Positions 19,256-45,211 of a DNA stretch of 64,000 nt are shown piece by piece (the first letter of the stretch is position 1; every line of letters starts with the position of its first letter). Both the position numbers and the translations under genes were made by a program. This DNA comes from Marasmitruncus massiliensis (GTDB taxonomy: Bacteria; Bacillota; Clostridia; Oscillospirales; Ruminococcaceae): contig NZ_FYDE01000005.1 in the NCBI RefSeq assembly GCF_900186535.1, positions 1,340,895 through 1,404,894 on the forward strand, written 5' to 3'. The notes under the pieces are model-generated. The model did not search any database. It was not told where the DNA came from and saw only the letters and a program-made list of their open reading frames with translations.

Positions 19256-19291
19256 AAAGAACCGTTTCGGCAGAAGCTGAAACGGTTCTTT
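19256..19291. terminator. Convergent bidirectional terminator
   Basis: A 13-bp perfect stem (19256-19268 with 19279-19291) with AAA/TTT at its base, between the FMN-binding gene (plus) and the recombinase gene (minus), touching the recombinase stop codon. Confidence 0.8.
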
Positions 19292-20754
19292 TACAGTTTC
19301 CAGATGACTTCCAGGCTGTCGGATGACAGCAGAATTTTTTCAATGATTCTGAAAGCGACTGCCTTTTTCTCTTCAAATTGCAGCTTTTCAAAGTCAAACT
19401 TTGCCGGTTCCTTTTTAAACTCCAAACGTTCCAGTTGTTTTATCTGTTCTCGCAGGGATTGTTTCTGTTGGTCGAGCCGCAGCAGTTCGGCATTTATGTA
19501 CTTTACTGAAACGGAATTCCCTTCGGCAAGGGCACCGATTAAACGGCAGATTTTGGTTTCGACAGCGGATAAATCCTCCCGAAGCCGCTGGCCGGTATCG
19601 CCCGGCTGTTCCGTGCCGGCACAGCCGGAGAAGAGCGCTTTGACTTCTTCGGAGACTGCGTGCTCAATTTCTATGATGGAGAGCCGGAAAGACTGGCTGC
19701 AAATCCTGTAGTTGCTGCGTCCGGTACAGGACAGGTATTTCCGTCCTTTGCTGACGGATACCTTGGCGCTGTAACCGCAGCTGGCGCATTTGAGCAGCCC
19801 GCTCAGCCAGGTGTGTTTCCCTTTTCCGGTATTTTGAATCTGCCGGTTATGACAAAGCTTATATTGGCAGTTCAGCCACAGATCGGCGGGGATCACTCCT
19901 TTGTGGTTGAGAATGATAACCCGCTGTTCCTCCGGCTGCGTATATCGGCTTTTTGCACGGTCACGCCTGCCTTCAATCCGGCAGGCGGAGGTTCCGTCAA
20001 ATGCCTCCTCAGGGGGAAGTCCCCTGATTCCCTGTGAAGCGAAATAATCCCGGACTGCTGTTGTCGACTGCACATAGGCGGTGTTGTGCAGAATCCTTGA
20101 AACGGAAACACTGTCCCAGGCGGGCCTTTTCCCGCAGGGAATTGCTTCTTCATTCAGCTCTTTTGCGACTGTGCTCAGCGAGGTCCCCGGCAAAGCGTAT
20201 GTTTCGAAGATGCGTTTTACGATTTCACATTGCCGGTTGGGGATCAGGGCGGGGGATTTTTTCCCGGTTTCCTCCGTGACCCTGCCGAGATCAAATCCGA
20301 AAGGCGCACTGCCTCCCGCCCATTCCCCGCGTAATATTCTTTGCTGGTAATTATCCCGGATGCGTTCCGCGATGGTTTCTCGTTCCAGTTGGGCGAATAC
20401 CATAATGATGTACAGCATGGCGCGCCCCATGGGGGTTGAGGTGTCAAATTTTTCATTGATGGATACGAACTCAACATCTTTGCTCTGAAAAATCTCCCAA
20501 ATTCGTCCGAAATCCGCTATGGAACGGCTGAACCGATCCATCCGGTAGACCACCACTTTTTGAATCCGTCCTGCTTTCACAGAGTCAATCATTTTTTCAA
20601 AGGAAGGACGGTGCGTATTTTTCCCGGAAAATCCCTTGTCCTTATATATCATGAACGCATCCCCGATACATTCACTCCGACACAGCTCAATTTGCCCCTC
20701 AATGGAAAGACTGTCCTTTTTGTCTACAGACTGCCGCGCGTAGATTGCTGTCAA
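19291..20754 (-). CDS. Large serine recombinase (integrase)
   Basis: A 487-residue site-specific recombinase. The resolvase domain has Tyr5-x-Arg7-x-Ser9 (nucleophile Ser9), YRMDRFSRS and the RAMLYIIMVFAQLERETI helix leading into the DNA-binding region. Next come a recombinase domain (AKELNEEAIPCGKRPAWDSVSVSRILHN) and a zinc ribbon CASCG...CTGRS...CSQSF (about 330-370), with a coiled-coil tail. Length and order are those of phage and ICE large serine integrases. It starts with TTG at 20754 behind GGGGGAGG. It is the obvious candidate to have moved the 11.06-34.54 kb island, though it sits mid-island. Confidence 0.93.
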   Translation of the reverse strand: MTAIYARQSVDKKDSLSIEGQIELCRSECIGDAFMIYKDKGFSGKNTHRPSFEKMIDSVKAGRIQKVVVYRMDRFSRSIADFGRIWEIFQSKDVEFVSINEKFDTSTPMGRAMLYIIMVFAQLERETIAERIRDNYQQRILRGEWAGGSAPFGFDLGRVTEETGKKSPALIPNRQCEIVKRIFETYALPGTSLSTVAKELNEEAIPCGKRPAWDSVSVSRILHNTAYVQSTTAVRDYFASQGIRGLPPEEAFDGTSACRIEGRRDRAKSRYTQPEEQRVIILNHKGVIPADLWLNCQYKLCHNRQIQNTGKGKHTWLSGLLKCASCGYSAKVSVSKGRKYLSCTGRSNYRICSQSFRLSIIEIEHAVSEEVKALFSGCAGTEQPGDTGQRLREDLSAVETKICRLIGALAEGNSVSVKYINAELLRLDQQKQSLREQIKQLERLEFKKEPAKFDFEKLQFEEKKAVAFRIIEKILLSSDSLEVIWKL

Positions 20755-21116: not shown

Positions 21117-21584
21117 TTATTCGTGCAGCGGAGCGTGCTGCATACCGTCAGAAGTGATATCCAGCATTTTTACGGTTGCCGCCGCTGACTGTCTCATCTG
21201 CAAGGTTTCCCAAAAATGATGCGCCGACAACAACAGAATTACGGCCGCGCAGCCCGCAAGCGTTTCCATCAGACTCCCATGGCTCAGCACGACCTGACGC
21301 GTAATGGCAAACAGCAGGATTTCCATAATCGACTCCGGCGTACGGTTCAGGAATGTTTTGATAAATTCAATTCCGATTACAAGGATCAGCAGGTCCGCTA
21401 AAAAGTTCTGCAGCCCGCTGGGACCGATGAGCGGAGAGGGAATGCAGAAATATTTTTTCAGCAGGCAAAAACCGCAGATGGTGATTCCCGCAAATACCAC
21501 CCACGAAAGGGCCCCTTCAAAAATTGCCGCAGCAATTTGTAACCCTTGCTGTGATTTTTTTCTGATGATTTGATGCAAAACCAT
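21117..21584 (-). CDS. PsiE-like membrane protein
   Basis: A 155-residue protein with four hydrophobic helices. The pattern IEFIKTFLNRTPESIMEILLF followed by an Arg and a His (ITRQVVLSHGS) and a last helix resembles the phosphate-starvation-inducible PsiE family. Function unknown. It is the last gene of the citDEF cluster, 33 nt after citXG, so it may be co-transcribed. Assigned by pattern only; an unrelated small membrane protein is possible. Confidence 0.5.
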   Translation of the reverse strand: MVLHQIIRKKSQQGLQIAAAIFEGALSWVVFAGITICGFCLLKKYFCIPSPLIGPSGLQNFLADLLILVIGIEFIKTFLNRTPESIMEILLFAITRQVVLSHGSLMETLAGCAAVILLLSAHHFWETLQMRQSAAATVKMLDITSDGMQHAPLHE

Positions 21585-21617: not shown

Positions 21618-23090
21618 TCATTCCGGTTTGTGGCTTTTCATGATAGAGATGGAGGCGGAGCCAATCGCAGAACGAAAAACCGTATATGCAGTCGTGCTGC
21701 CTGCGGGGATTTTCCAGATGTCCTCCAGAAATAAAGTCATCCATGCGCAGGCCAGCAGGTCCGCGCAGCCTCCTGCGCTCAGGTTCTGCTGGCGCATAAA
21801 TGTATCGAGCTGCCATGCGGAGGCGGTTTGTTCCTGAACGGTTTGCCGTCTTTGCAGCAGTCTTCCGATCACTTGACTGAACTTGTGCTGGACGCTGAGA
21901 CTGGAGCGATGGATCAAAGTGCTGTCACTGACATTTGCCATTAAGGAAAGAAGCGCGGCTGTTCCCGCCTCGTCTTTGCTGTATCCGTCCGCCAAAGTCT
22001 TTTTCAGGACCGGCAGGGCGAAGTCTTTGACAGATGGAAAGCCGCCTGCGGCTTCTCCGCGTACGCCGGTCAGCCCATATTGGATAAAAAGGCGCTCCCC
22101 GGCGGTTTTTGCGCTTTGTGCTGTTATGGTCTTGAAATCATCGAGCGCGCAGGCGGCAATCTGTGCACTCAAAGAGAACATCTTTTCTTCCGACATCTGC
22201 TGCCCTTCTCTTAGCAGGCGGCCGCCGGCCGCCACGAGAATTCCGAGCAGAAAAATGGCGCCTTTATGGGTGTTGACGCCGTTTGTTGCGGCGTGCATGG
22301 CGCGTTCCGCTTCCACTCCGAGAAGACGAAGTTTCGAAAACAGCTCGGATGGTGTACCGGCAAACCGGAATCCAAGCCGTGCCGATTCGCGGAAGTAGGG
22401 GAGGAGCGCTGCCGTACTGTCAAGAAACAGATAGAAATCCATATCCTGATGCGATCCGTTGTTGCTGCGGTCTACAAGCCCGGGTTTGGGGGTTACGGCC
22501 ACCTCGTAGAGCAATGCGCGGACAGCGCACGCGGCAATCCGGTCGCAGACGGTTTCCCCGAAATAGCGCTTCATGACGGAGATCGTATGTACAGTCAGTT
22601 TGTCAACCGTATGAGCGCGGCTTCGCGCGCAGACAGCCGCCGCCTGATCGCAGATCAGGCATTTTCGCTCTGCAAAGCCAACCTCCACGCGCGAAATCTT
22701 ACTTCCATCGGATTTCAAAACATCAATATCAAAGATGCGCCCAAGCGGGCATCCTTCTTCGAGCCGGGTCATCCACTGCTTTACTTTACGGGCGTCTTCC
22801 TGAACCGAGAAAAAAGCTGTTGGCCCGGTTTTATTCAGCTGCTGCTCAAAATGGGCGACAGGCGTTTTTTTCTCCTGTAAAAGTTCGGTGATCTGTGAGA
22901 CAGCCTCGCGGAACGTCTGAATTGCCAGAGAAAATGCTTTATACGGTCCCGCGATATTAAGAGTCAGGCAGATCAGCGAACCCTGCCATTGCTTCAGGAG
23001 TTGCTGTTGGCGGCGCACGCGCGCTTCGCGCGCGTCCAGCATTTCCTCCAACGCTACGGGTTCACAGCCTGACAGTTCCGGTATCATCAT
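21618..23090 (-). CDS. citXG: CitX-CitG fusion: citrate lyase prosthetic group synthesis and transfer
   Basis: A 490-residue two-domain protein. The first about 175 residues match CitX, which attaches the phosphoribosyl-dephospho-CoA group to the acyl carrier subunit (PLGRIFDIDV motif). The remainder matches CitG, which makes triphosphoribosyl-dephospho-CoA from dephospho-CoA and ATP (ALLYEVAVTPKPGLVDRSNN, then GVNTHKGAIFLLGILVAA). Natural CitXG fusions are known in several bacteria. The start overlaps the citC stop as ATGA. Confidence 0.92.
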   Translation of the reverse strand: MMIPELSGCEPVALEEMLDAREARVRRQQQLLKQWQGSLICLTLNIAGPYKAFSLAIQTFREAVSQITELLQEKKTPVAHFEQQLNKTGPTAFFSVQEDARKVKQWMTRLEEGCPLGRIFDIDVLKSDGSKISRVEVGFAERKCLICDQAAAVCARSRAHTVDKLTVHTISVMKRYFGETVCDRIAACAVRALLYEVAVTPKPGLVDRSNNGSHQDMDFYLFLDSTAALLPYFRESARLGFRFAGTPSELFSKLRLLGVEAERAMHAATNGVNTHKGAIFLLGILVAAGGRLLREGQQMSEEKMFSLSAQIAACALDDFKTITAQSAKTAGERLFIQYGLTGVRGEAAGGFPSVKDFALPVLKKTLADGYSKDEAGTAALLSLMANVSDSTLIHRSSLSVQHKFSQVIGRLLQRRQTVQEQTASAWQLDTFMRQQNLSAGGCADLLACAWMTLFLEDIWKIPAGSTTAYTVFRSAIGSASISIMKSHKPE

Positions 23091-24091
23091 AGAGGGTTCC
23101 TTTCCGGGGAATTTTTGAGGGAAGCCAAATAAGAAAATGTGGGTTCGGGTACGAGGGGACGAATTTCTTCGAGCTTTCCTTCTGCAAGCAGCCGCCGTAC
23201 CTGAGAAGCGCTGACGGCCAGCCCGTTCTCTTCCCTGCGCGGAATCGTAATCAGTTCAATTCCGTTTCCGGGAAGGGTTTCCCGCAGGGCCTGATTGTAA
23301 CGGGCTGTCACCGGGCAAAAAGGTTCCTCCCCGACGTAGCGGCGCGTGATATGGAGCGGCTTGGCAAAGCATTTGCAGAAAACCTCCAAATCCAGCGCAC
23401 AGTTGACTTCCGCCGTTCTGGATTTGTCTTTCAGAAAATAATTGGGGAAGGTCGCGGAGGAAATCAGATATTCCCCGGTGGGGTGCACGAACACATTCGG
23501 GAACCGCGCCGCCGTTTTTTGCGCGAGTTCCATGCGGACTTCGAAAGGAAAGGTACTCTGCTCTTCCGAAAGAATGAACAGATGCAACGTGCCGCATTGG
23601 CTTGCGGCAGTTTCGACCAGATACAGGTGCCCGTTTGTAAACGGGTTTGCGTTGGCCACAATTGCGCCGGTGATGCCTTTGGTATCCGGAACGGCGAAAG
23701 AAGCCACAAAATCCCGCACGCCGTTTTTTTGATTTTCCATCAGCAGAACGTCACCGGTTACGGCAATGGGATAGAAGCCCAGCCCTGAAAACAGCTCCTG
23801 ATTCGACGGTGTTGTAAACAAAAACAGATGAGAAAATCCGGCCGCGATTGCATCCTGAACCAGCACTGTCATAACAGCCGCGGCCAGACCTTCCCCCCGC
23901 CTTTCAGGGGAAACACCAATGCACTTCAGGAGATTTTTGTCCCGCGAGCCGGTTGCCAGCAGTTCGCCGTCTTCTTCGAGGAGGACTGTAACCTGTACCT
24001 TCGGGTCAAAACTGAGGGAAAGGCGGTCTAAAAACCGGATGACGTCCGCTTTTTTCCGGCCGGCAGCCGGCGCCATGACAATTGTTTCCAT
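23087..24091 (-). CDS. citC: [Citrate (pro-3S)-lyase] ligase
   Basis: A 334-residue enzyme that acetylates the prosthetic thiol of citrate lyase from acetate and ATP, switching the lyase on. The N-terminal half is an acetyltransferase-like domain (CIGVSPERRGEGLAAAV). The C-terminal half is a nucleotidyltransferase domain with VANANPFTNGHLYLVE (HxGH-type site) and AVSASQVRRLL. The ATG at 24091 has AGGAG 7 nt upstream; the open frame runs further up to 24142 but without support. It begins 15 nt after the hydratase gene ends. Confidence 0.92.
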   Translation of the reverse strand: METIVMAPAAGRKKADVIRFLDRLSLSFDPKVQVTVLLEEDGELLATGSRDKNLLKCIGVSPERRGEGLAAAVMTVLVQDAIAAGFSHLFLFTTPSNQELFSGLGFYPIAVTGDVLLMENQKNGVRDFVASFAVPDTKGITGAIVANANPFTNGHLYLVETAASQCGTLHLFILSEEQSTFPFEVRMELAQKTAARFPNVFVHPTGEYLISSATFPNYFLKDKSRTAEVNCALDLEVFCKCFAKPLHITRRYVGEEPFCPVTARYNQALRETLPGNGIELITIPRREENGLAVSASQVRRLLAEGKLEEIRPLVPEPTFSYLASLKNSPERNPL

Positions 24092-24105: not shown

Positions 24106-26382
24106 TTAAGAGCGGTTTTGCCTGTTGAAATTGATCAGGCATCCCGCAAGCAGAATCCGCTTCTCATCGGGAGTCAGTTCCGCCACGCGCATGGTGAACG
24201 GCTGGAACGGGTTACCGACAAGATAGGCCTGGATGGAGGAAGTACCGGACAGAATCGCATCGCGGATATAGGGAACGAGCAGGTAGCTGCCGTTTTCAAA
24301 CAGGGGCGGCTCCTCCAGAACAAAGGGAACCATCCCCCAGTTGATCAGATTGGAGCGGTAGCGCTTGGTCGCGTATTCTCTGGCGATGTTGGCCGCACCG
24401 CCCAAAACGCGCTGGCAGCTTGCGGCCTGCTCGCGGGCGGAGCCGTCCCCCGGCTTGACGGCGTAGATGACCGAACCAAGGCCGGTATTTTCCGTATGGA
24501 TTCCGACGATTTCCGCTGCCTGAATTTCCGCAAACACGACCCGCAGTTCTTCGGGGACATGTCCGCCGGCGCGTTCCTTTTCCATTGCCTGCACCGTTTT
24601 TGCTTTTGCCACATATAACGGGTCCCTGCGGGAGAGGGTAAATTCCGCGAGCCCCAGCGGGTTGGAACGATAGGAAGAGGTTTCACCGGAGGGAATCAGT
24701 TCGTCGGTGGTGGTAACGGGGTCGGTAATGAAACTGACGACCTTCAGCAGGAGATGTTCCGGCATCGGATTTATTTTCGGCCAGTCAATGATATTGGGGC
24801 CGTACTTGAGTTCGGCGGCCGGGTCAGGTTTGCCAAATCCGTTATAAACGCGGTTATGATATGGCTTCTGGTCAAAATAATAGCCGGAGTGGTCATATTT
24901 CACCTCATCAAGCTCGGTAGCCGGCGTCAGCAGGCCGCCGTGAAGCGCCGTGGCCGCGATCGAGCGGGCATCCATCAGGGCCACGCCCGCAGCCTGATTT
25001 CCGGAAGGTTTGCTGCCCTCCCGGTTCGGGAAGTTGCGGGTCGTGTGCCGGATGGAGAGAGCGCCGTTCGCCGGTACATCCCCCGCGCCGAAGCAGGGTC
25101 CGCAGAACGCGGAACGCACCGTTGCGCCCGCCTGCATCAGTTCGGAAATCGCGCCGTTTTTCACCAGTTCCAGCATCACCGGCTGGCTTGACGGATAAAC
25201 CGAGAGGGAAAATTCTCCGTTCCCGATGCTGTGCCTGCGAAGGATGGAGGCCGCCGCCATTACATTGGTATAAGTGCCGCCCGCGCATCCGGCAATCACG
25301 CCCTGTTCCACCTGTAAACGTCCGTTTTTGATCTTATCGGTCAGGCGGAGCCCTTTCAGGGCAGCCTGTGTCTGTCTTTCCGCTTCACGCAGGATATCTC
25401 CGGCGTTTTGATTCAGCGTATCAATCTCGTAGACATTTGACGGATGGAACGGCAGGGCAATCATAGGCTTTATGCTTGAAAGATCGACCTCGATCAGTCC
25501 GTCGTAATAAGCCACACCGGCAGGGTGCAGCGGGGCGTAATCCTCCGGACGCCCGTGGACTTCAAAAAACTCGCGGGTGTCCTCATCCGTTTCCCAGATG
25601 GAGGACAGACAGGCGGTCTCGGTGGTCATAACGTCAATGCCGCAGCGGTAATCGGTCGGCAGGCTGGAAATTCCCGGGCCCACAAACTCCATAACGCTGT
25701 TTTTCACCGTCCCTTTTTCAAACACCGCGCCGATCATTGCGAGCGCCACGTCCTGCGGCCCGACTCCCGGACGGGGCGCACCGGTGAGATAAACCGCTAC
25801 AACACGCGGATAATTGATGTCGTAGGTGTTGCAGAGCAGCTGTTTGACCAGTTCGCCGCCGCCTTCACCGATTGCCATAGTCCCCAGCGCCCCGTAACGG
25901 GTATGGCTGTCGCTTCCCAGAATCATCTTTCCGCACCCGGCCATCATCTCGCGCATGTACATGTGAATCACCGCCAAATGCGGGGGGACGTAAATCCCTC
26001 CGTATTTTTTTGCCGCGGACAAACCGAACATGTGGTCATCCTCGTTAATGGTCCCGCCCACCGCGCATAAGGAGTTGTGGCAGTTTGTCAGCACATAGGG
26101 AACCGGGAATTTCTCCAGGCCGCTGGCTTTCGCGGTCTGGATAATGCCGACATAAGTAATGTCATGGCTGGCAAGCGCGTCGAACGTGATCTGCAGCTTA
26201 TCCATGCCGGAGGAACGGTTGTGATGTTTCAGGATGGAGTAGGAAATTGTTCCTTTTTTGGCTTCCTCAATGGAAACTGCTTTGCCGTGCAGATTCCGCA
26301 GCTGAGCTTCCGCGTTGCAGTCTGCGTCGATGATTCTGGAACCGCCTGACAGAAAGACACCGTTTGTATGTATCTTGATCAT
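24106..26382 (-). CDS. Aconitase-family hydratase in the citrate lyase operon
   Basis: A 758-residue member of the aconitase superfamily, nearest in type to the YbhJ-like putative hydratases. It has [23 protein letters not shown], candidate 4Fe-4S cysteines in [12 protein letters not shown] and [11 protein letters not shown], and a swivel domain with NFPNREGS. It should dehydrate or rehydrate a tricarboxylate or a C5 dicarboxylate. Sited between citF and citC in one operon, it probably feeds the lyase (for example isocitrate or aconitate to citrate, or mesaconate to citramalate). The true substrate cannot be read from sequence. Its ribosome binding site overlaps the citF end. Confidence 0.85.
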
Positions 26383-26388
26383 AGCAGC

Positions 26389-27930
26389 CTACTCCTTTAC
26401 CTCATAAATCAGATCGATAATGCTGTTGTCGCGGTAGGTCACAATACCTACCACTTTATCGGTATACAGGATCGGGTCGGCTTTCCCCACAATTTTTTCC
26501 GCCTTGCTCCGCAGTTCATCAATCGAGCAGACAGGCAGCCGGGCGGCAATGAGCCGGTCTTTCAGATCCGGGCGTGCCGGGTTCACCGCAATCCCCTGAT
26601 CGGTGACCACAACGTCAATACTCCGCCCGGGTGTGACAATGGTGTTTACATGATTCACAATGGTGGGGATTCTGCCGCGCGTGAGCGGTGCCACAACAAT
26701 GGAGACGCTAGCGCCTGCCGCCGTGTCCGGGTGGCCGCCGATTGCGCCGCGGATTACGCCGTCGCTTCCGGTGAGCACATTTACGTTGAACCCGGTGTCC
26801 ACCTCAAGCGCGGAAAGCACCACGACATCCAGCTGGTTGACGGCTGTGCCGGGGTTGGACGGGCTGGCATAATAGCTTGCGGAAATCTGCTGATGGAAGC
26901 GGTTGTTCTTCAGGCTTTCGGCGGCGCGCAGGTCAAAACTCTGCACGTCCAGAATTTTGCGCACCAGCCCTTCTTCCAGCAGTTCCACAACGCTTCCGGT
27001 AATTCCGCCGAGCGCAAACCCCACCTTGATGTTTTGCTTGATCATGTCCTCGCGCAGGAAGCGGATTGTCGCGAGGGAAGCGCCGCCCGAACCCATCTGC
27101 ATGGAAAAACCGTCGTAAAAATGACCGCTGTTTTCGATGACTTTGGCGGCGTATTCCGCAATCAGAAGCTCTTTCGGGTTTTTGGTAAAGCGGGTCGCGC
27201 CGCTCATAATGCCGGCGGGATTTCCGATCTCCGGAACCTGCACGACATAGTCCACATTCGATTCCGGAATTCCGAACGGAGCGTTCGGGTAAGGAACCAG
27301 ATTATTGGTGATGATGATGACCTTTTTCGCGTATTCGGCGTCCTGCTTTGCGTACCCCATCGATCCGCACATGATACCGGTGTCGCCTTCACGGGAATAT
27401 CCGTTTGCGTTTCCGAACGCGTCGCAGGAGGGTGCCCCGAGGAACGCCACGTCAATTGCCAGTTCGCCTGATTCTATCGCGTAAGCGCGGCCGCCGTGAC
27501 TGCGAAATACCACCGGGATATCCATCAGCCCGTGGCTGATGGCATCCGCCAGTTTGCCGCGCAGGCCGCTTGTCTCAATGCGCCGGATGACGCCGCTTTT
27601 GATGTGGTCCATGAGAGGAAAGTGGCAGTCGGTCAGGCTGCTTGCCGCCAGGACCAGATCCTTAAAGCCCATTTCCGCGAGCTTGGCCATCACCATGTTG
27701 ATGATATAATCGCCGCCGCGAAAATGATGATGAAAGGAGATGGTCATGCCGTCCCGCAAACCGGACAGCCGGATAGCCTCATCCAGATCGTTCACCAGCT
27801 TTTTGCTGTGCAGGGAACGCTCCGCCAGTGTCCGCACATCTTTGGGCTGCAGATTTTGTTCGTCGCTGTAACTACCGCCTAAGGCGCAAAATTCCTCCAA
27901 ATGGGGAATTGATGAAAGTTCTAAGCTCAT
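26389..27930 (-). CDS. citF: Citrate lyase alpha subunit (citrate:acetyl-ACP transferase)
   Basis: A 513-residue CitF. It exchanges the acetyl group on the acyl carrier subunit for citrate. Family stretches seen include MTISFHHHFRGGDYIINMV near residue 60, GFALGGITGSVVELLEEG, and the C-terminal TVVTDQ-like IDVVVTDQGIAVNPARPDL. The ATG at 27930 has AGGAG 8 nt upstream, 13 nt after the citE stop; the in-frame extension to 27972 overlaps citE and lacks a ribosome binding site. Citramalate lyase alpha subunits are close relatives and cannot be excluded. Confidence 0.92.
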   Translation of the reverse strand: MSLELSSIPHLEEFCALGGSYSDEQNLQPKDVRTLAERSLHSKKLVNDLDEAIRLSGLRDGMTISFHHHFRGGDYIINMVMAKLAEMGFKDLVLAASSLTDCHFPLMDHIKSGVIRRIETSGLRGKLADAISHGLMDIPVVFRSHGGRAYAIESGELAIDVAFLGAPSCDAFGNANGYSREGDTGIMCGSMGYAKQDAEYAKKVIIITNNLVPYPNAPFGIPESNVDYVVQVPEIGNPAGIMSGATRFTKNPKELLIAEYAAKVIENSGHFYDGFSMQMGSGGASLATIRFLREDMIKQNIKVGFALGGITGSVVELLEEGLVRKILDVQSFDLRAAESLKNNRFHQQISASYYASPSNPGTAVNQLDVVVLSALEVDTGFNVNVLTGSDGVIRGAIGGHPDTAAGASVSIVVAPLTRGRIPTIVNHVNTIVTPGRSIDVVVTDQGIAVNPARPDLKDRLIAARLPVCSIDELRSKAEKIVGKADPILYTDKVVGIVTYRDNSIIDLIYEVKE

Positions 27931-27943
27931 TTCTTTCGCTCCT

Positions 27944-28828
27944 TTAAAAAGTAATGCCGGAAGCATGGGCAATTTCGAGAATCCGTTCCGCGCGGGCCAC
28001 GACCGGCTTGTCGATCATTTTGCCATTCAGGGCAATGACGCCGCTGCCTCGCTCTTTGGCTTCTTTGATGGCGTCCATAATGGCAAGGGATTTTTGGATT
28101 TCCTTGTCGGAAGGGGTGTAAAGGCTATGCACAGGCTTGATCTGCCTGGGGTTGATGACCGACTTGCCGTCGAACCCCAGCTGCTTAATGAGCTTTACTT
28201 CCGCCTCAAAGCCTTCCATGTTATTAACGTCGCTGTAAACGGTGTCGATCGCGGCAATGCCCGCCGCGCGGGCCGCAAGCAGGATCACGCTGCGGGCGAA
28301 CAGCAGTTCGATTCCGTCAGAACTGCGGCTGGTTTTCAGATCTGTCACATAATCTTCCGCGCCGAGCGCGATGCCGATCAGCCTTTTGGAACTGACGGCA
28401 ATTTCCCGCGCGTTCAGAACGCCCAGCGCGCTTTCAATTGCGGCCATCATGCGCGTGGACCCGGCCGGGATACCATTCTCCGCTTCTATTTCAGCAATAA
28501 CGTTTTCACAGTAGGTGACATCTTCCGCACACTCGGTCTTTGGCAGGCGGATAATGGCCTTTCTGGTGCAGACAATGGCGGTAAGGTCGTCCTTTCCGAC
28601 TTTTGTCCGGGGGTCATTTATACGCACGACCAGTTCGATGCCATTGTAGTCATAGCAGTTCAGCGCTTCGCTGACCAGGAAACGGGCGGAATCCTTCTGG
28701 TCGACCGCCACGCTGTCCTCCAAATCGAACATAATGGAGTCGCTTCCGTAAATATAGGCGTCTTTCACCATGCCGGGGTTGTTTCCGGGCACAAACATCA
28801 TGGTGCGGCGCAGTTTATATGTATCCAT
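27944..28828 (-). CDS. citE: Citrate lyase beta subunit (citryl-ACP lyase)
   Basis: A 294-residue HpcH/HpaI-type TIM barrel that splits citryl-ACP into acetyl-ACP and oxaloacetate. Motifs: LRRTMMFVPGNNPGM at the N-terminus, DSIMFDLEDSVA (Mg-binding Asp/Glu), VRINDP, and MAAIESALGVLNA. The start codon overlaps the citD stop by 1 nt (TAATG), typical of citDE pairs. Confidence 0.94.
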   Translation of the reverse strand: MDTYKLRRTMMFVPGNNPGMVKDAYIYGSDSIMFDLEDSVAVDQKDSARFLVSEALNCYDYNGIELVVRINDPRTKVGKDDLTAIVCTRKAIIRLPKTECAEDVTYCENVIAEIEAENGIPAGSTRMMAAIESALGVLNAREIAVSSKRLIGIALGAEDYVTDLKTSRSSDGIELLFARSVILLAARAAGIAAIDTVYSDVNNMEGFEAEVKLIKQLGFDGKSVINPRQIKPVHSLYTPSDKEIQKSLAIMDAIKEAKERGSGVIALNGKMIDKPVVARAERILEIAHASGITF

Positions 28829-29124
28829 TAATTCTGCCCTCCAAACTGATAGCTGTCACAATTACAGGCACGGTAAGCCGCCGTTTTGACGCGGGCACGC
28901 ACTGTGCAGTCCAGAGCACCTTTATCCAGAGCTTTCACGTGGGCATTTTTTACATCCAGTTCTGTTAAAACATCCTGAATCGTGCTGCGGATGGCATTTC
29001 CGAATTGTTTCTCCACAGAACTTTCCAGTTCGATTTCAATTCCCCCCACGCTGCCGGGAGAAAGCGTTACCATAATATCGCTGGACTCCATTGTCCCGGC
29101 GACGGCTGTTTTTTCAATCTTCAA
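28828..29124 (-). CDS. citD: Citrate lyase gamma subunit (acyl carrier protein)
   Basis: A 98-residue carrier of the phosphoribosyl-dephospho-CoA arm. With a TTG start at 29122-29124 (AGGAGGGG 7 nt upstream) the protein begins MKIEKTAVAGTMESSDI, placing the conserved prosthetic-group Ser at position 14, as in characterised CitD proteins. The frame is open 20 codons further up but that would displace the serine. First gene of the seven-gene minus-strand operon. Confidence 0.93.
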   Translation of the reverse strand: MKIEKTAVAGTMESSDIMVTLSPGSVGGIEIELESSVEKQFGNAIRSTIQDVLTELDVKNAHVKALDKGALDCTVRARVKTAAYRACNCDSYQFGGQN

Positions 29125-29222
29125 TCTGGTCCCCTCCTGTAAAATAATCAGCGAGTCAAGAGGCACTGGCCCGCTCCACTGCACGCTTATTTTAACGCGT
29201 GAAACTTAAGATCAAATAAAAA

Positions 29223-29594: not shown

Positions 29595-30638
29595 ATGAAA
29601 AAGTTAATGGCAGTTGTTTTGACAGCTGGAATTGTACTGTCTCTTGCGGCGTGCGGTTCCAATTCCAATGCGCCTGCGGCGACGCCGTCTGCACAGAGTC
29701 CGGCAGCATCCAAGGCGGAGCAGAGCAGTGCCGCAAGCGAAGAAGAGTCCTGGACATTTGAACGCAATATTGAAATAGTCTGCCCGTGGGGCGCCGGCGG
29801 CGGTGCTGATACGACACTGCGTACCTTTGCGGCGGCGCTGGAAAAGGAAATCGGCGTTAAAGTGGTAATCAACAATAAGGCCGGCGCAGGCGGCACAACC
29901 GGTGTGGAATATGCCATGCAGCAGCCTGCCGACGGGTACACCTGGCTGCTCTGCACGCAGAGCCCGCTTCTGGCTCAGCTGACGGGCGCATCCAATGTGG
30001 ACATGGCCGGGATTGAACCGGTTGTCCGGCTGGTCCACGATACCAACGTCATTGTGACGGGAAAAGATTCCCCCTATAACAACTATAAAGAACTGGTTGA
30101 TTACATCAATGCAAATCCCGGTGTCGTAAAAGCCGGCTGCATGACAATCACAGGTCTTGACGGCCTTGACGTGCAGCTGGCCTTCGACGGCAAGGTTGAA
30201 CCGATTGCTTATTCCGAGGGGGCGCAGCTGAACAGCGATGTGATGGCCGGACATATTGCACTCGCATCCGTGGGACCGGCGGAAATCGAAGCGCTTGTGG
30301 CTTCAGGGGATGTGAAGCCGATTCTGGTCTGCTCCGAAGAACGGATGTCTACAGAATCGTTCAAGGACTGCGAATGTGCCGGCGAGCTTGGCATTGACTG
30401 CTATTATGGCCCTTACCGTGGGATTTTTGCGGCAAAAGGCACACCGCAGGCAGCAATCAAAGCATTTGAAGCCGCCGCTGAAAAAGCTGTCGCAAGTGAT
30501 ACCTTCCAAAAATGGGCGGCCTCACAGGGGCTTGACCAGCGTCCCGGCTGGCAGAATACAGCCGACTTCACAGCAACCTGGAATCAGGATGTCGAGAACC
30601 TGTCTGCACTTGTTTCGACCATGAATGCCGCAAAGTAA
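29595..30638 (+). CDS. tctC: Tripartite tricarboxylate transporter receptor lipoprotein
   Basis: A 347-residue Bug/TctC-type solute receptor: lipobox L-A-A-C (Cys20), a Ser/Ala linker, then the fold with IVCPWGAGGGADTTLRTFA (carboxylate-binding loop) and INNKAGAGGTTGVEYA. It captures tricarboxylates outside the cell for TctB/TctA. AAGGAG lies 8 nt upstream. It is divergent from the citrate lyase operon, so citrate or a related tricarboxylate is the likely ligand. Confidence 0.92.
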   Translation: MKKLMAVVLTAGIVLSLAACGSNSNAPAATPSAQSPAASKAEQSSAASEEESWTFERNIEIVCPWGAGGGADTTLRTFAAALEKEIGVKVVINNKAGAGGTTGVEYAMQQPADGYTWLLCTQSPLLAQLTGASNVDMAGIEPVVRLVHDTNVIVTGKDSPYNNYKELVDYINANPGVVKAGCMTITGLDGLDVQLAFDGKVEPIAYSEGAQLNSDVMAGHIALASVGPAEIEALVASGDVKPILVCSEERMSTESFKDCECAGELGIDCYYGPYRGIFAAKGTPQAAIKAFEAAAEKAVASDTFQKWAASQGLDQRPGWQNTADFTATWNQDVENLSALVSTMNAAK

Positions 30639-30704: not shown

Positions 30705-31211
30705 TTGACTTTGACGATTGAACTGGTTTTTAATGCTTTGATGCTGATCTTTTTCAGTTACTGTTATTTTTATATCGGTGCAACCTTGCCGCCTTCCGCA
30801 AACACTGAGCTTGGTGCGGAGCAGTGGCCGCAGATTATTTTGGCGCTGCTGGTCCTGATGCTGATCATAAACATTGTAAAAATTGTAAAAAACCTGAAAA
30901 CGGTTCCCGCTGAAAAACAGCTGAATGTAAGCCTCCTGAAAGGCTTTTTTACAAGCAAACTGTTTATCGGAATTATCATCGTTTTTGTTTTGGCGGTTCT
31001 TTTAGGCAAGATCGGGTTCATACCGTCCTGTATCCTGTTCCTCATCGCATATTCCCGGCTGCTGGGAGAAAAACGGTGGTATATCAGCCTGATCTGCGCG
31101 GTTGTGATCACAGCGATTTTGTTTATTCTGTTTTATAAAGGCCTTAGTATTATGCTGCCGCGCGGCGAGGGGATTTTCCGTACGTTTGCCCTCCTGCTGG
31201 AATCTATCTAG
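30705..31211 (+). CDS. tctB: Tripartite tricarboxylate transporter small membrane subunit
   Basis: A 168-residue protein with four predicted membrane helices and a central loop, the TctB/DUF1468 type. It stabilises or assists TctA. It starts with TTG at 30705, about 11 nt after AAGGGA; no ATG is available before the first helix. Confidence 0.85.
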   Translation: MTLTIELVFNALMLIFFSYCYFYIGATLPPSANTELGAEQWPQIILALLVLMLIINIVKIVKNLKTVPAEKQLNVSLLKGFFTSKLFIGIIIVFVLAVLLGKIGFIPSCILFLIAYSRLLGEKRWYISLICAVVITAILFILFYKGLSIMLPRGEGIFRTFALLLESI

Positions 31212-31227
31212 AGGAAGGAGAGTTAAA

Positions 31228-32739
31228 ATGTTAGATATCTTAATTTCCGGCGCGCAGATTATCTTTCAGCCGCTTACTTTTCTGTTTATTTTGTGCGGAA
31301 CCTGTCTGGGCGTTGTATTCGGGGCGATGCCCGGTGTCAGCGCATCTATGGCAGTTGCACTGGCACTGCCGTTTGCCTATTCCATGAGCCCTGTTGTTGC
31401 AATTGCCTTTCTCGTCTCGGTATATTGTGCCGCGATTACCGGAGGCGGGGTAACGGCTATTCTGTTTAAAATTCCGGGGACTCCGTCCAATGCCCCTACG
31501 ACGTTTGACGGTTATCCGATGGCCCAGCGGGGGGAGGCCGGAAAAGCTCTGGGCGTTTCTCTGGTGTGCAGCGCGTTCGGCGGTATGATTGCCGCATTTG
31601 CGATGGCTTTGATCAGCCCTCAGCTTTCTGCTGTCGCGCTGAAATTCGGCCCGTCTGAACTGTTCGCCGTATCCTTTCTGGGGCTTTCCGTTTTGACCTG
31701 CCTTGACAGCGGCAATATCGTCAAAACGATTATATCCGGATTGATTGGTCTGTGGCTGTCGACCATTGGCATGGACCCGATGCTTGGGCTTGCTCGTTTT
31801 ACATGGGGAAACAGTACACTGCTGGGCGGTGTTGAAATGATCCCGGTTATGATCGGTATGTTTGCAGTTACAGAAGTGCTCAAAGAAACCACGAAGCCGC
31901 GGGTAATGAATGGATCAGACAAACAGACCGGTGTAAAAACAACATTCCCGGGAGTCAAAGAGTTCCTGAGCATTAAATGGGTGATGATCCGGGCTTCCAT
32001 TATCGGGACGATCGTGGGAATCCTTCCCGGTGCCGGCGCGACAATCGCTTCATTTTTATGTTACACAACGGAAAACAAGCTCAGCAAGCATCCGGAAAAA
32101 TTCGGTACCGGCTGCATAGACGGTATCGCGGCATCGGAATGCGCCAACAATGCCGCTACCGGAGGCTCCATGGTTCCTTTGCTTTCTCTTGGAATCCCGG
32201 GCGGCAACGCGGCGGCCATCATGATGAGCGCCCTGGTAATGATGGGCGTGCAGGTGGGTCCACTGCTTGTGCGCACCCAGCCTGAATATCTCTCCAGCGT
32301 GTTTACGTCCATGCTGGTTACCAACATTTTGATGGTTGTAATCTCCATGCTGGTTGCTAAGATTTTTGCGAAGATTCTGGCGGTTCCGTACAGCATTCTC
32401 GGGCCTACCATCATCATGCTGGCTGTGATCGGTTCCTATGCGCTGAACAACAACGTCGGAGACGTCATGCTGATGACTATCGCCGGTACGATTGGATATT
32501 TGTTTGTAAAACAGGGATTCTCTGCCGCCGCACTGGTTTTAGGATTGGTACTCGGGCAGATGTGTGAATCTAATTTGCGCAGGGCGATCAAAATCGAAAA
32601 CGGAAATTTGCTGGCTGTATTTTCCAAACCGATTACCGCGGTACTGATGACTGCGTGCATTATTATGCTTGTATATCCGGTTGTCAAGCCGATTATTTCG
32701 CGGAAATTCGGCAAAAAGGCGAATGTCTCCGCAGTTTAA
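31228..32739 (+). CDS. tctA: Tripartite tricarboxylate transporter large membrane subunit
   Basis: A 503-residue TctA with about 12 helices. Two conserved repeats are seen: GAMPGVSASMAVALALPFAY near residue 32 and GILPGAGATIASFLCY near 265, plus KIPGTPSNAPTTFDGYPMAQRGEAGKALG. It is the ion-driven transport channel. AAGGAG lies 7 nt before the ATG. It ends at a bidirectional terminator facing the LysR gene. Confidence 0.94.
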   Translation: MLDILISGAQIIFQPLTFLFILCGTCLGVVFGAMPGVSASMAVALALPFAYSMSPVVAIAFLVSVYCAAITGGGVTAILFKIPGTPSNAPTTFDGYPMAQRGEAGKALGVSLVCSAFGGMIAAFAMALISPQLSAVALKFGPSELFAVSFLGLSVLTCLDSGNIVKTIISGLIGLWLSTIGMDPMLGLARFTWGNSTLLGGVEMIPVMIGMFAVTEVLKETTKPRVMNGSDKQTGVKTTFPGVKEFLSIKWVMIRASIIGTIVGILPGAGATIASFLCYTTENKLSKHPEKFGTGCIDGIAASECANNAATGGSMVPLLSLGIPGGNAAAIMMSALVMMGVQVGPLLVRTQPEYLSSVFTSMLVTNILMVVISMLVAKIFAKILAVPYSILGPTIIMLAVIGSYALNNNVGDVMLMTIAGTIGYLFVKQGFSAAALVLGLVLGQMCESNLRRAIKIENGNLLAVFSKPITAVLMTACIIMLVYPVVKPIISRKFGKKANVSAV

Positions 32740-32823: not shown

Positions 32824-33756
32824 TCAGCTTTTAAACAGATACGGCAGGGCGGTTTTGCAGATTTGTATAAATTCCAGAGCGGCTTCCGTAAGGGAATCTT
32901 CGGACAGAAAACAGACAACAAACTCCCAATGCGGGAAGTAACGTTCCTCAATCCTGTAAAAGCGGACGGATGCCGAGATGTTGCTGAGCATGGAACAGTA
33001 GCTGGACGGGACGATGCTGACCCCCAATCCGAAGCTGACCAGACGCATAACCGTATGAATATTGCAGGTTTCAAATTTGATTCTGGGACGAATGCCTGCG
33101 GCGTCCAAAATGCGCTGTGCGGCCCGTCTGGTTCCCTGTGTCGGGTGCGTAAGAATAAAATTCCTGTTGGAAACCAATTGCAGATCCAAAAACGGCAGGT
33201 CACCGATTGGCTGTTCGGTAATCAGGTCATTCACCGCGTCGTTTGAAGGCACCATCAGCAGAAGGTTTTCCGAACAGATTTGCTGATAAGGGATGCCTGT
33301 GTTTGCCAGCGGCAGATGAAGAAGGGCAAGATCAACGCTTCCGTCCAGCAGTTTTGCCTCAATGACGTTAGGGTCTTTCTCAACAAGTTCAATTTCAATT
33401 CCAGGGTACACGCCGCTGAAGGTGCGCAGTATTTCGGGAAGTACGACCGCACCGAACTGGCTGGTCGTGCCAATGACCAGATGGCCGGACTGCAGATGGT
33501 TGATCTGTGAGATTTCGTTTTCCAGGTCGCGGGTCATTTTCATAATTTGTTTGGCGCAGAGCAGGTACTTTTTTCCCGCATCCGTAGGAATAAGCCCTCC
33601 CGGAGTGCGCTTAAACAAAGAAACGTTTAAAGAGTTTTCGATTTTCTGTAAACTTCGGCTGAGGGATGACTGGGACATATCCAGCTTTTCTGCTGCGCGG
33701 GAAAGACTCCCCGATTCGGCGATGGCAATCATATAAAGCATTTCTTTGCTGTTCAA
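32824..33756 (-). CDS. LysR-type transcriptional regulator
   Basis: A 310-residue LTTR: N-terminal helix-turn-helix (SGSLSRAAEKLDMSQSSLSRSLQKIE), linker helix, and an effector-binding domain beginning GHLVIGTTSQFGAVVLPEIL. I chose TTG at 33756 because GAGGAGG lies 8 nt upstream; the ATG at 33774 would put that site inside the gene. Convergent with tctA and divergent from the AbrB-type gene. It probably controls cit and tct in response to a tricarboxylate, acting at the dyad 29464-29496. Confidence 0.88.
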   Translation of the reverse strand: MNSKEMLYMIAIAESGSLSRAAEKLDMSQSSLSRSLQKIENSLNVSLFKRTPGGLIPTDAGKKYLLCAKQIMKMTRDLENEISQINHLQSGHLVIGTTSQFGAVVLPEILRTFSGVYPGIEIELVEKDPNVIEAKLLDGSVDLALLHLPLANTGIPYQQICSENLLLMVPSNDAVNDLITEQPIGDLPFLDLQLVSNRNFILTHPTQGTRRAAQRILDAAGIRPRIKFETCNIHTVMRLVSFGLGVSIVPSSYCSMLSNISASVRFYRIEERYFPHWEFVVCFLSEDSLTEAALEFIQICKTALPYLFKS

Positions 33757-33804
33757 AGCAGAGAGCCTCCTCATGTTTAAAATTACGAAAGGGAAGTGCG
33801 TAAA

Positions 33805-34518
33805 ATGCCGCTCGATTTGCTTTTCACCCTGCTTGCAGCCTTTTGCGGCGGATGGATTTTATTAAAAGTCAAAGTGCCCGGGGGGATGCTTGTAGGGTCG
33901 ATTTTAGGAGCGGCCGCTTTGAACATTGCGGCAGGGTCGGCTGTAATGACGGCGGGGGCGAAAGTATTCGCGCAGATTGCCGCGGGCGCTTTTATCGGCT
34001 GCACTGTTCGGAAAGAGGATATCCGGGAAATGCGCCGTCTGCTCAAACCGGCGGTCATCACGCTTTCCTGTATGTTGCTGCTGAATCTGGCTGTCGGCTT
34101 TGCCATTTATGCGGTCGGAGACGGCCTGGACCTGGTTACGGCGTTATTTTGCGCGGTGCCGGGAGGAATCAGCGATATCCCGATTATCGCTGCGGATCTG
34201 GGTGCCAGCGCTCCGCAGGTAGCTGTTATGCAGTTCGTCCGCCTGCTGGTCGGCATTGGGATCTTTCCCGGCCTCATTCACCGGATAACCAGGGGGGAGC
34301 CGTCTGAGCCCGTTCAGGCTGAAACACAGCCCCCCGCAGAAACTGAGAAAAAGAAACCGGAAAAGCTGTCCTCTCTTGGGGTGACACTTGCCGTAGCTTC
34401 CGCCGCAGGCATTTTGGGAAAATATCTGGGGATTCCTGCCGGCACACTGGTCTTTGCAATGCTGGGAGTCATCCTGCTGAAGCTTTCACGTTTAAAACGG
34501 CTTGTGGAGGCGGTTTGA
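33805..34518 (+). CDS. AbrB-type membrane protein (possibly truncated)
   Basis: A 237-residue membrane protein of the AbrB-duplication family (PF05145-type), often found with tct genes. The first repeat is complete (KVPGGMLVGSILGAAALNIAAG, then AVPGGISDIPIIAADLGASAPQVAVMQFVRLLV). The second repeat begins (GKYLGIPAGTLVFAMLGVILL) but ends soon after; full-length relatives are usually about 100 residues longer. Its TGA stop lies inside the right att arm, so the gene may have been cut short at the element's end. Start ATG at 33805 with GAAAGGGA upstream. Function unknown. Confidence 0.75.
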   Translation: MPLDLLFTLLAAFCGGWILLKVKVPGGMLVGSILGAAALNIAAGSAVMTAGAKVFAQIAAGAFIGCTVRKEDIREMRRLLKPAVITLSCMLLLNLAVGFAIYAVGDGLDLVTALFCAVPGGISDIPIIAADLGASAPQVAVMQFVRLLVGIGIFPGLIHRITRGEPSEPVQAETQPPAETEKKKPEKLSSLGVTLAVASAAGILGKYLGIPAGTLVFAMLGVILLKLSRLKRLVEAV

Positions 34519-41174: not shown

Positions 41175-41558
41175 ATGGAAGAACAGCAGAATGATCTTGG
41201 TTTCGAAGTGGTGCATTTCGGCGTCAACTGTTCCGGCAGGGAGGAGGCCATGCGGCAGGCGGGACTGTTCCTGCGTCTGTTTGAGATTCTGCCCGCCGAG
41301 GGGAAAGATTCCGTTTATGCCGGCCCGCTGGTGGAACTGATGAAGGGAAATGGCCGCGGCACGCACGGACATATTGCGGTGGCGGCAAACAACATCCATG
41401 CCGCCCGCGCCTATTTGGAAAGTCTGGGCTGTACCTTTGACGAAGCCAGCGCGAAGTTTAACGACCGCGGCGGATTGATCGTAATTTATCTCAAAGAGGA
41501 AATCGCCGGATTTGCAGTGCATCTGTTACAAAAGGAAACGATAGATTGTGAGGCGTAA
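41175..41558 (+). CDS. Stand-alone VOC/glyoxalase-like domain, as in KDPG-aldolase C-termini
   Basis: A 127-residue protein with [43 protein letters not shown] and [22 protein letters not shown]. This is the glyoxalase-like domain that some Clostridia carry fused after a KDPG/KHG aldolase (Eda) domain; here it stands alone between an importer and a sugar-acid-type dehydratase. No aldolase half is present next to it. It may bind a keto-deoxy sugar acid or serve as a partner subunit. The assignment rests on remembered family sequence. Confidence 0.6.
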
Positions 41559-41562
41559 CATT

Positions 41563-43224
41563 ATGATTCGTGAGTGGAACGAAGAATCTTTAGACCATCG
41601 GAACACACTTTTATATGCGATGGGAATTTCCGAGGAGGATGCCAAACGCCCGGTGATTGGTCTGGTTAACTCCTGGAATGAAATGAATCCCGGGCACTTT
41701 CCGTTTAAAGACGTCATTGCCGAGATGAAGGAAGAAATCTATCAGGCGGGCGGTATTGCGCTGGAACTGCCTGTCAGCGGTATCTGTGACGGCATCTGCT
41801 CCAACACCCCCGGAGACCGCTACACCCTGCCCGCGCGCGATCTGGTTTCCAGCGAGGTGGAAACGGTAGCCGAACTGAATATGCTTGAGGGCATGATCGT
41901 CATGGCAACCTGCGACAAGGTTGTCCCGGGCATGGTAATGGGCGCACTCCGCGTGAATATTCCCACGGTGATGTTTACAGGCGGTTTTATGGCCGCCGGG
42001 CATTACAACGGGAAAATGCTGACACTGACACATACAAAGCAGGCCTATGCAGCCTATATAGCCGGCGACATCAGCCGCGAGGATTACAAGGGAATTGTAA
42101 AAAACGCCTGTCCGACGCCGGGGGCATGCCCGTTCATGGGTACCGCCAACACCATGTGCGCGATGGCGGAAGTGCTGGGGCTCACGCCGCATGGAAATGC
42201 CAGCGTCCGCAGCCAGAGCCCCGAATGGCATGAAATGGCCCGTTCGGCTGCCAGAAAAGTCATGGAGGCGGTCCATCAGGAACTTCGTCCGCGGGACTTC
42301 ATCAATCAGGAGAGCTTTGAAAATGTGGTGCGCTACATGATGGCGACCGGCGGCTCCACCAACAGCCTGCTGCACATCCCTGCGATTGCCCGCCAGATCG
42401 GCTGCGACATCACACCGGAAACATTTGATCAGATCAGCCGTGAAGTCCCGGTGATCAGCGCAATCTATCCGAACCACCCGACCTATACTATGGAGGAATT
42501 TTCCGCCGCGGGAGGGCTCGGCGCGGTCGTGAAGGAACTGGCGGGCGCCGGAAGGATTGCCGGTGATGCGAAAGGCCTGTTCGGCACAATTGAAGAAAAG
42601 GCAAAGCTCGCGGAAAACAAAGACCATAACGTCATCCATCCGGTTGCCAGCCCCATTCATGAGCAGGGAGGCCTTGCGGTTCTGCACGGCAATATCGGCA
42701 GCGAGAGCGCGATTGTGAAATTCAGCGCGGTGGACCCGGATGCCTGGAAGTTCGAAGGGCCCGCGAAGTGCTATGACTCTCAGGACAGCGCGTGGAACGC
42801 CATTCTGAAGGACGAAATTGTAGCGGGAGACGTGGTTATCATCCGCTATGAGGGTCCGAAAGGAAGCCCGGGTATGCCGCATATGGAAACATTTATGGCT
42901 GCGGTGCTCGGCAAAGGCATGGGTAAGGACATCGCTTTGGTGTCTGACGGCCGGTTTTCCGGTGCCACTGGCGGCCTTGCCATTGGGCATGTGAGCCCGG
43001 AGGCGTATGAAGGCGGAAACCTTGCCTTCATTCAGGATGGTGACAGGATTCATATTGATATTGAAGCAAGAACGCTTACGGTAGATGTCAGTGAAGAAGA
43101 GTTCGCCCGCCGCCGTGCATCATGGAAGCCAATTATCAAGCCCGCAACCGGATGGCTTCGGCTGTACCGCAAAAACTGCACATCCGCGCACCGAGGAGCG
43201 ACCGTCTACTGGGATAAAGATTAA
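41563..43224 (+). CDS. IlvD/Edd-family Fe-S dehydratase (sugar acid type)
   Basis: A 553-residue member of the dihydroxy-acid / 6-phosphogluconate / sugar-acid dehydratase family. Features: [13 protein letters not shown], Fe-S cysteines in TCDKVVPGM and [28 protein letters not shown], and [20 protein letters not shown]. It removes water from a polyhydroxy acid to give a 2-keto-3-deoxy acid. The locus lacks other valine/isoleucine genes, so a catabolic sugar-acid dehydratase is more likely than IlvD. The ATG at 41563 follows GAGG by 9 nt and the preceding gene end is just behind. Confidence 0.88.
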
Positions 43225-43295
43225 CCAGTTCCTTTTTCAAACATGGTTGCAGGCTCTGGAAAAGAATGGTATGATTCATTTTGAGGTGATTGGTT

Positions 43296-44303: not shown

Positions 44304-44313
44304 GAGGTTTAAA

Positions 44314-45150: not shown

Positions 45151-45197
45151 CTGCCTCAAACGGAGAAGCGTTTGCGGGCATCTTCTGCAAAAATGAT

Positions 45198-45211
45198 TGC
45201 AAACGATTGCA
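45198..45211. promoter_or_regulatory. LacI-type operator over the second catabolic promoter
   Basis: TGCAAACGATTGCA: perfect TGCAA/TTGCA arms with 4 nt between them, overlapping the -35 of the promoter at 45207-45235. It matches the dyads in front of the Liv-type operon. Confidence 0.6.

Follow-up and report, generated by a model that had tools for sequence, protein, structure and literature searches.

A YbhJ-family aconitase gene within a citrate lyase operon of Marasmitruncus massiliensis

The gene strings of the classical citrate lyase operons have been given as citCDEFXG in Escherichia coli and oadHDB-citCDEFX-oadA-citMG in Enterococcus faecalis (PMC3198936, PMC4684311). Another tricarboxylate can reach the same route: the fermentation of trans-aconitate by Acidaminococcus fermentans passes through citrate and oxaloacetate (PMC3035267). 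The PrpF-superfamily proteins TarA and TbrA isomerise trans- and cis-aconitate (PMC11495376). The subject of this report is ybhJ, a gene for a protein of the aconitase superfamily that lies between citF and citC in the citrate lyase operon of Marasmitruncus massiliensis. It is found in a stretch of 64,000 nucleotides (the window, C3:1340895-1404894 of a 3.76 Mb genome), and positions below are those of the window unless a locus is named. The preferred reading, for which a probability of about 0.5 is given, is that YbhJ and citrate lyase work together so that isocitrate and cis-aconitate are fed into the lyase.

The gene is an open reading frame (ORF) on the minus strand (24106-26382) with an ATG start, 758 amino acids and zero internal stops. 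Its product belongs to NCBIfam NF008503 (PRK11413, 'hydratase', the E. coli YbhJ family), scoring 1278.4 bits against a cut-off of 641 over the full length (residues 1-757 on profile positions 1-752 of 753). The second-best NCBIfam model is the PRK07229 aconitase (NF005558), at 344.2 bits and below its cut-off of 612; scores for AcnA, AcnB, AcnD, homoaconitase and LeuC are far below their cut-offs. Identity is 64% to E. coli YbhJ and about 28-29% to PRK07229 proteins. Both Pfam domains of the superfamily are above cut-off (Aconitase, 302.6 bits, cut-off 28.7; Aconitase_C, 25.5 bits, cut-off 22.8). The AlphaFold2 model, with a predicted local distance difference test score (pLDDT) of 85.8, matches the mitochondrial aconitase structures 1nis/7acn (for 1nis, Foldseek E 2.4e-44 and a Z score of 36.4 over 649 residues). 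A preliminary description of this DNA had placed an aconitase-family gene between citF and citC, and the exact ORF, its spacing and the NF008503 and Pfam matches confirm this.

In aconitase chemistry Ser642 acts as the base and three cysteines hold the cluster (PMC8184944). The active site was compared in an alignment of 18 YbhJ and 7 PRK07229 proteins, E. coli AcnA, AcnB and LeuCD, a LeuCD-like pair from a second locus of the window genome (L009) and stretches of pig aconitase. Conservation was tallied more widely in 138 YbhJ rows, which include a few identical sequences. The cluster cysteines C366, C427 and C430 and the motif D158-S159-H160-T161 are present in the window protein, so that the 4Fe-4S cysteines and DSHT motif are intact, as had been described. 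The equivalents of pig C358, C421, C424, D165, S166, H167 and H147, and of H101, E262, R447, R452, R580, S642 and R644, are likewise present; this catalytic Asp/His/Glu/Ser/Arg set with its three cluster cysteines makes up 14 positions that never vary (138/138). Pig numbering was checked in the alignment for all except R580, whose pig stretch is absent from it. The corresponding residue of the window protein is R572, in a YRSN motif common to PRK07229; it aligns with arginine in 7/7 PRK07229 proteins and in AcnA, and its pig counterpart is what we take to be R580. R572 is thought to be the arginine that holds the third carboxylate. By established aconitase chemistry, the YbhJ site looks like a working tricarboxylate site. 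Of the residues conserved to 97% or more across the 138 rows, the window copy departs from one only (position 462) and is thus without sign of decay. A decayed gene was considered and is ruled out by the intact ORF and this single outlier.

The minus-strand order is citD-citE-citF-ybhJ-citC-citXG-psiE-like, with citD, citE, citF, citC, citX and citG all in one run:

28828..29184, minus strand: citD, citrate lyase acyl carrier protein (TIGR01608, 113.7 bits, cut-off 63.5)
27944..28828, minus strand: citE, citrate lyase beta (TIGR01588, 449.9 bits, cut-off 443.4)
26389..27972, minus strand: citF, citrate lyase alpha, as the longest ORF (TIGR01584, 739.8 bits, cut-off 501.45)
24106..26382, minus strand: YbhJ-family aconitase, 758 aa (NF008503, 1278.4 bits; PF00330 and PF00694; AlphaFold2 model; active site)
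23087..24091, minus strand: citC, [citrate lyase] ligase (TIGR00124, 296.1 bits, cut-off 262.1, scored on a longer ORF)
21618..23090, minus strand: citXG fusion, holo-ACP synthase and triphosphoribosyl-dephospho-CoA synthase (TIGR03124, 168.0 bits, cut-off 105.25; TIGR03125, 282.2 bits, cut-off 272.3)
21117..21584, minus strand: PsiE-like small protein, last gene of the run, 33 bp past citXG (PF06146, 27.6 bits, cut-off 23.9)

The citF, citE, citD and citC products are above the NCBIfam citrate-lyase equivalog cut-offs, citE only narrowly; within the fusion, CitX and CitG each pass one model (TIGR03124, TIGR03125) and miss others. An ATG at 27930 is, judged from the sequence, a likelier start for citF than that of the longest ORF, and the true start of citD may lie inside the annotated ORF, since homology starts near residue 21. 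The gaps along the run from citD to the psiE-like gene are -1, -29, 6, 14, -4 and 33 bp, taking the citC start as 24091 and not the longest-ORF start at 24142. The aconitase gene therefore begins 6 bp past citF and ends 14 bp ahead of citC. A sequence resembling a ribosome site, AAGGAG, is found at the citF 3' end, and AGGAG precedes the citC start at 24091. Promoter-like sites number 19 against 9.9 in shuffles, and terminator-like sites 27 against 19.4; none falls in the gaps flanking the aconitase gene on either side. From the spacing, we infer that ybhJ is co-transcribed with the cit genes.

The arrangement recurs. A sample of the same order (295 genomes) has citF in 13 genomes, and a sample of the class (391 genomes) has citF in 37 and YbhJ in 99, the latter counted from the two best candidates scored per genome, so that extra copies may be missed. 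In both samples together 13 genomes have citF as well as YbhJ, and in seven the two form one cluster (the window genome G000, G280, G301, G328, G502, with 11% contamination, G587 and G653). Further linked copies occur in G008, of the same genus, where the genes are divergent, and in L102, L131 and L134 among 80 named YbhJ loci. These named loci are the best 80 of 591 and come from Lachnospiraceae, other Clostridia, Collinsella, a Citrobacter and others. Altogether there are 12 linked copies, 10 in one run with cit genes and 2 divergent from them (L009, L181). The earlier statement that standard cit operons carry no aconitase agrees with the two operons named in papers; with 11 further linked copies, the window is not unique. 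Layouts are as follows, some genes being assigned by family tests and the others from their tblastn matches to proteins of the window or of L009:

L093 and L094: citDEF-X-C-G-YbhJ-NADP-isocitrate dehydrogenase
L092: the layout of L093 and L094, with no citC match
L134: MatC/CitMHS-type carrier-PrpF-YbhJ-citDEF-G-C
L102: citDEF-YbhJ, with carrier-like and PrpF-like matches about 7 kb on
L131: YbhJ-citDEF, at a contig end
L224: PrpD-like-YbhJ-citDEF-racemase-like-TctCBA
L225: PRK07229-TctC-[166 aa]-TctA-YbhJ-citDEF-AbrB type-malic enzyme
L226: TctCBA-AbrB type-citDEF-YbhJ

The isocitrate dehydrogenases of L092, L093 and L094 are each above the NF006156 cut-off; the PrpF protein of L134 is above the Pfam and below the NCBIfam cut-offs. 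In L226 no citC, citX or citG was found in the 13.6 kb contig. The cluster at L225:4566-18558, where two aconitase families stand side by side, also has an RraA/oxaloacetate-decarboxylase-like protein (below cut-offs). YbhJ genes occur in tandem at L155:6377-15243 and L172:1409-6228. L155 is without cit genes; one of its YbhJ proteins is a diverged copy, 49% identical to that of the window, and the other is followed by a PrpF-like protein and a citrate:proton symporter (TIGR00784, above cut-off).

In a YbhJ tree of 55 rows, including L224-L226 and with all 12 linked copies, the cit label needs 8 changes, at least 6 of them forced by starred branches; such counts do not separate gains from losses. 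The label is clustered too (4/500 shuffles as low), which means that the linked copies were not all gained independently. A single clade for linked YbhJ is rejected (approximately unbiased test, p 5.5e-7, on the earlier set of 9 linked copies before L224-L226 were added). The YbhJ of L226 is a long branch. On the lyase side, CitF of the window is closely related to those of L009 and L181, and a starred set of 8 in the CitF tree has 7 linked members. The eighth is G590, in which no YbhJ was found among the two candidates scored per genome in the class sample. Change counts were not used for the CitF tree, where the linked rows L212 (G653) and L215 (G587) carried the unlinked label. Since related lyases occur with YbhJ copies from several lineages, this pairing has been kept or remade, not merely inherited.

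The distribution of the family bears on its activity. YbhJ is present in 120 of the 295 order genomes and PRK07229, above cut-off, in 141; no genome has both where 57 would be expected (Fisher p about 1e-51, kinship ignored), and 34 have neither. YbhJ-bearing genomes of this sample carry one copy each at E <= 1e-150, with three in the window genome only. Among neighbour families seen in at least 4 of the 80 named loci, there was no recurrent tricarboxylate partner of YbhJ. The exclusion, the single copies and the lack of a recurrent partner form the pattern of a replacement aconitase, and YbhJ in these genomes looks like one. In the order, citF is never found with PRK07229 (0/13 against 141/282, p 0.0002, kinship ignored).

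The window genome has two more YbhJ copies. In L009 (G000:C1:784500-803500) YbhJ is divergent from another citDEF, in a run of two PrpD-family proteins, LeuC-like, LeuD-like and YbhJ with TRAP-type transporter genes nearby; the set looks like a pathway for some other tricarboxylate. L184 in G008 has a comparable run that lacks cit genes. The other copy, L010, is outside any cit locus. The three occupy separate places in the tree, and with identities of 64% and 56% to these copies the window gene is ruled out as a recent duplicate of either. A PF00330 search of the genome gave the three YbhJ copies and otherwise only LeuC-size frames (429-495 aa). The genome also encodes an NADP-isocitrate dehydrogenase outside the cit runs (L189) and two citrate synthases. 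Because a YbhJ outside cit loci and an isocitrate dehydrogenase are already present, the operon copy is an extra one, which favours a catabolic role. At L012:2796-8556 (G000:C3), two TRAP-transporter-like genes (by eye) stand with a PrpF-family gene, LeuC and LeuD; this LeuC is above the TIGR02083 cut-off and may belong to a catabolic hydratase.

On the other side of citD lie the genes of a tripartite tricarboxylate transporter, with TctA, TctB and TctC subunits all present beside the cit run, and a regulator:

29595..30638, plus strand: TctC-type receptor of the transporter, divergent from citD (PF03401, 89.2 bits)
30705..31211, plus strand: TctB-type small membrane subunit (PF07331, 60.4 bits)
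31186..32739, plus strand: TctA-type large membrane subunit (PF01970, 472 bits)
32824..33774, minus strand: LysR-type regulator (PF03466 and PF00126)
33796..34518, plus strand: AbrB-family protein (PF05145, 138.7 bits)

AbrB-type proteins also adjoin citDEF-YbhJ in L225 and L226 (TIGR03082), and L226 repeats the TctCBA-AbrB-citDEF-YbhJ set of the window. LysR genes are found upstream of YbhJ in 6 of the 80 named loci. Elsewhere in the window, Pfam matches identify a serine recombinase close behind the cit run (19291-20754) and, at a greater distance, an IS110-type transposase (53166-54404). A run at 41548-50471, perhaps a sugar-acid route, holds a dehydratase of the IlvD/EDD type (from Pfam), genes that look dehydrogenase-like by eye, and a large FAD protein whose scores on fumarate reductase/aspartate oxidase models stay far below cut-off.

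The activity, substrate range and direction of the window YbhJ are what we infer from these comparisons. A [4Fe-4S] YbhJ aconitase, expressed together with citrate lyase, would interconvert citrate, cis-aconitate and isocitrate. Tricarboxylates would be imported, perhaps by the adjoining TctCBA, for which they are the putative ligand; the aconitase would convert imported isocitrate and cis-aconitate to citrate, and citrate lyase would split citrate to acetate and oxaloacetate, drawing citrate away. Run in reverse, it could send part of the citrate through isocitrate to 2-oxoglutarate and NADPH via the NADP-isocitrate dehydrogenase encoded elsewhere in the genome. At loci with an added PrpF, trans-aconitate could join, and at those with an added isocitrate dehydrogenase, citrate could flow to 2-oxoglutarate. 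The aconitase equilibrium favours citrate. That YbhJ is a genuine citrate/isocitrate aconitase working with the lyase seems to us quite probable. If it is, then feeding the lyase is rather likely to be its main direction, since the gene is an additional copy and its catabolic run adjoins a transporter. The preliminary description went further, suggesting that the true substrate is not citrate but an isomer or dehydrated form. The kept active site, R572 included, and the partner genes argue for such substrates, but to set citrate aside goes too far, because citrate is itself an aconitase substrate and 6/13 citF genomes of the order are without either aconitase.

A number of observations weigh against the feeding of isocitrate and cis-aconitate into the lyase, or against an aconitase role as such. 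The surroundings of the cluster differ from those of classical aconitase: D100 is replaced by C, N360 by G and N446 by T in 138/138 YbhJ rows, N258 by V in 137/138, and Q72 by H and S643 by A in 17/18 of the YbhJ compared, so that YbhJ does not share the classical set (D100, N258, N446 and others). AcnB also has C at 100 and T at 446, and residues there thus do not define aconitase activity. The arginines favour a tricarboxylate; the altered surroundings leave room for a shifted preference. The highest structural Z, 37.1 over 402 residues, belongs to a homoaconitase large subunit and amounts to a tie with aconitase, and model stretches 104-111 and 452-460, the latter with R454, are under pLDDT 50. 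No activity assay of YbhJ was found in the open-licence literature. The run has neither isomerase nor isocitrate dehydrogenase, and the direction therefore rests on other loci. E. coli carries YbhJ alongside AcnA and AcnB, and L225 holds a PRK07229 aconitase (931.9 bits) as well as YbhJ beside citDEF; plain duplicate function does not explain the latter, and the substrate may be another one. The exclusion, moreover, concerns one family pair, YbhJ and PRK07229, in one order. Presence of citF and of YbhJ is not associated in the order (7/13 against 113/282, Fisher p 0.39), so the argument rests on physical linkage. Finally, those six citF genomes of the order have neither YbhJ nor PRK07229 above the thresholds used, and the same-genus genomes G002 and G005 (loci L183 and L182) have a full cit set with no YbhJ-model match at E <= 0.001; the lyase presumably works there without a YbhJ hydratase.

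The alternative that survives best, a possible though not a probable one, is that the main direction is the opposite: imported citrate would be converted to isocitrate and onward to 2-oxoglutarate, glutamate and NADPH, which would offset the reduction of the oxaloacetate that the lyase releases. In L092, L093 and L094 YbhJ and the NADP-isocitrate dehydrogenase stand directly behind the cit genes, each of these genomes has a single YbhJ, and the window genome has the same kind of dehydrogenase at L189. The window run, however, has no isocitrate dehydrogenase; for that route the genome could already rely on its separate YbhJ and two citrate synthases; and the PrpF or PrpD-family partners that take the place of the dehydrogenase in L134, L224 and L009 misfit.

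It is unlikely that YbhJ acts on a different tricarboxylate, such as trans-aconitate, another isocitrate stereoisomer, 2-methylcitrate or homocitrate, with citrate or a homologue passing to the lyase and PrpF, PrpD-family or LeuCD-type proteins as partners. The differing and nearly fixed residues around the cluster would suit such a change, as would the PRK07229 aconitase that YbhJ adjoins in L225, the PrpD-family proteins near YbhJ in L009, L184 and L224, the LeuCD-like proteins in L009 and L184, and the retention of YbhJ in E. coli besides AcnA and AcnB. Against this, a shared function best accounts for the finding that YbhJ and PRK07229 coincide in none of the 295 genomes, and the substrate arginines, including that for the third carboxylate, are unchanged.

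Chance insertion of a housekeeping aconitase with no functional tie to the lyase might be argued from the 77/80 named YbhJ loci with no cit match in the stretch examined, and from the 5/13 sampled genomes having both genes in which they are apart (G203, G208, G263, G548 and G563). But the genes form one cluster in 7/13 (in G677 contig fragments only are present and linkage cannot be judged), the window genome is linked twice, and the linked copies are not one clade; this recurrence makes chance very improbable. The proposal of the preliminary description that a mesaconase-like hydratase supplies a citramalate lyase, an enzyme homologous to citrate lyase, is rejected as improbable in the extreme: citE is above the citrate-lyase cut-off only narrowly, but CitF, CitD and CitC clearly pass (a preference for citrate or citramalate not being readable from sequence), and the kept third-carboxylate arginine has no use for mesaconate.

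The feeding of tricarboxylates into the lyase could be one case of something broader, which is offered tentatively and as improbable. YbhJ might be more than a spare aconitase and form the fixed core of a modular system for tricarboxylate fermentation in which YbhJ and citrate lyase are the common outlet and front ends are exchanged according to substrate. The front ends might be PrpF isomerase, PrpD-family proteins, LeuCD-like hydratases and TctCBA, TRAP or MatC-type importers, and trans-aconitate, isocitrate stereoisomers or other plant tricarboxylates might in this way be brought to citrate.

These results give a testable function to YbhJ, an E. coli family with no assigned role, which stands in place of PRK07229 in 120/295 order genomes and may be their aconitase. 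They also suggest isocitrate and aconitate, both found in plants, as substrates of some citrate-fermentation operons. This would change the substrate range read from the genomes of such bacteria.

Among known systems, E. coli ybhHIJ, with the PrpF-family YbhH and the putative tricarboxylate transporter YbhI, is close to the window gene in that its YbhJ belongs to the same NCBIfam equivalog and has the same compared residues; partners of the PrpF and carrier kinds are seen again at L134, which has cit genes, and at L155, which has none. E. coli YbhJ, annotated as 'putative hydratase', differs in having no cit gene in the 12 kb around it. The regulation of ybhH and ybhI is treated in PMC9068703, which in its available portion assigns no role to YbhJ, and no assigned role was found among the leading matches of some searches of the open-licence literature. 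PRK07229 aconitate hydratase shares the superfamily, the YRSN motif and the catalytic residues, and takes the place of YbhJ in the order sample.

The classical operons of E. coli and E. faecalis have the citDEF, citC, citX and citG parts in common with the window. Their gene strings show no aconitase, and transport is of the CitT or CitM type, with oad genes as well in E. faecalis, where the window has TctCBA. An aconitase gene inside a cit operon was not found in print among the leading matches of broader searches of the same literature. For A. fermentans, genes for both aconitate hydratase and citrate lyase are listed, and the authors state that pathway genes tend to cluster (PMC3035267). 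There, however, citrate lyase (Acfer_0408-0410) is apart from the aconitate hydratases (0096, 0631, 1971 and 1973; Table 6, PMC3035267), whose aconitase family is not named in that listing. The tar and tbr systems of Bacillus resemble the loci with PrpF in combining a PrpF-superfamily isomerase with a carrier to yield cis-aconitate, but this goes to central metabolism, and citrate lyase has 0 occurrences in the available text (PMC11495376). The passage of aconitate through citrate to the lyase is thus already known biochemically, as are the citrate lyase and aconitase families. What the present locus adds is an aconitase of the YbhJ family within the cit run itself, and several lineages show the same arrangement with differing partner genes.

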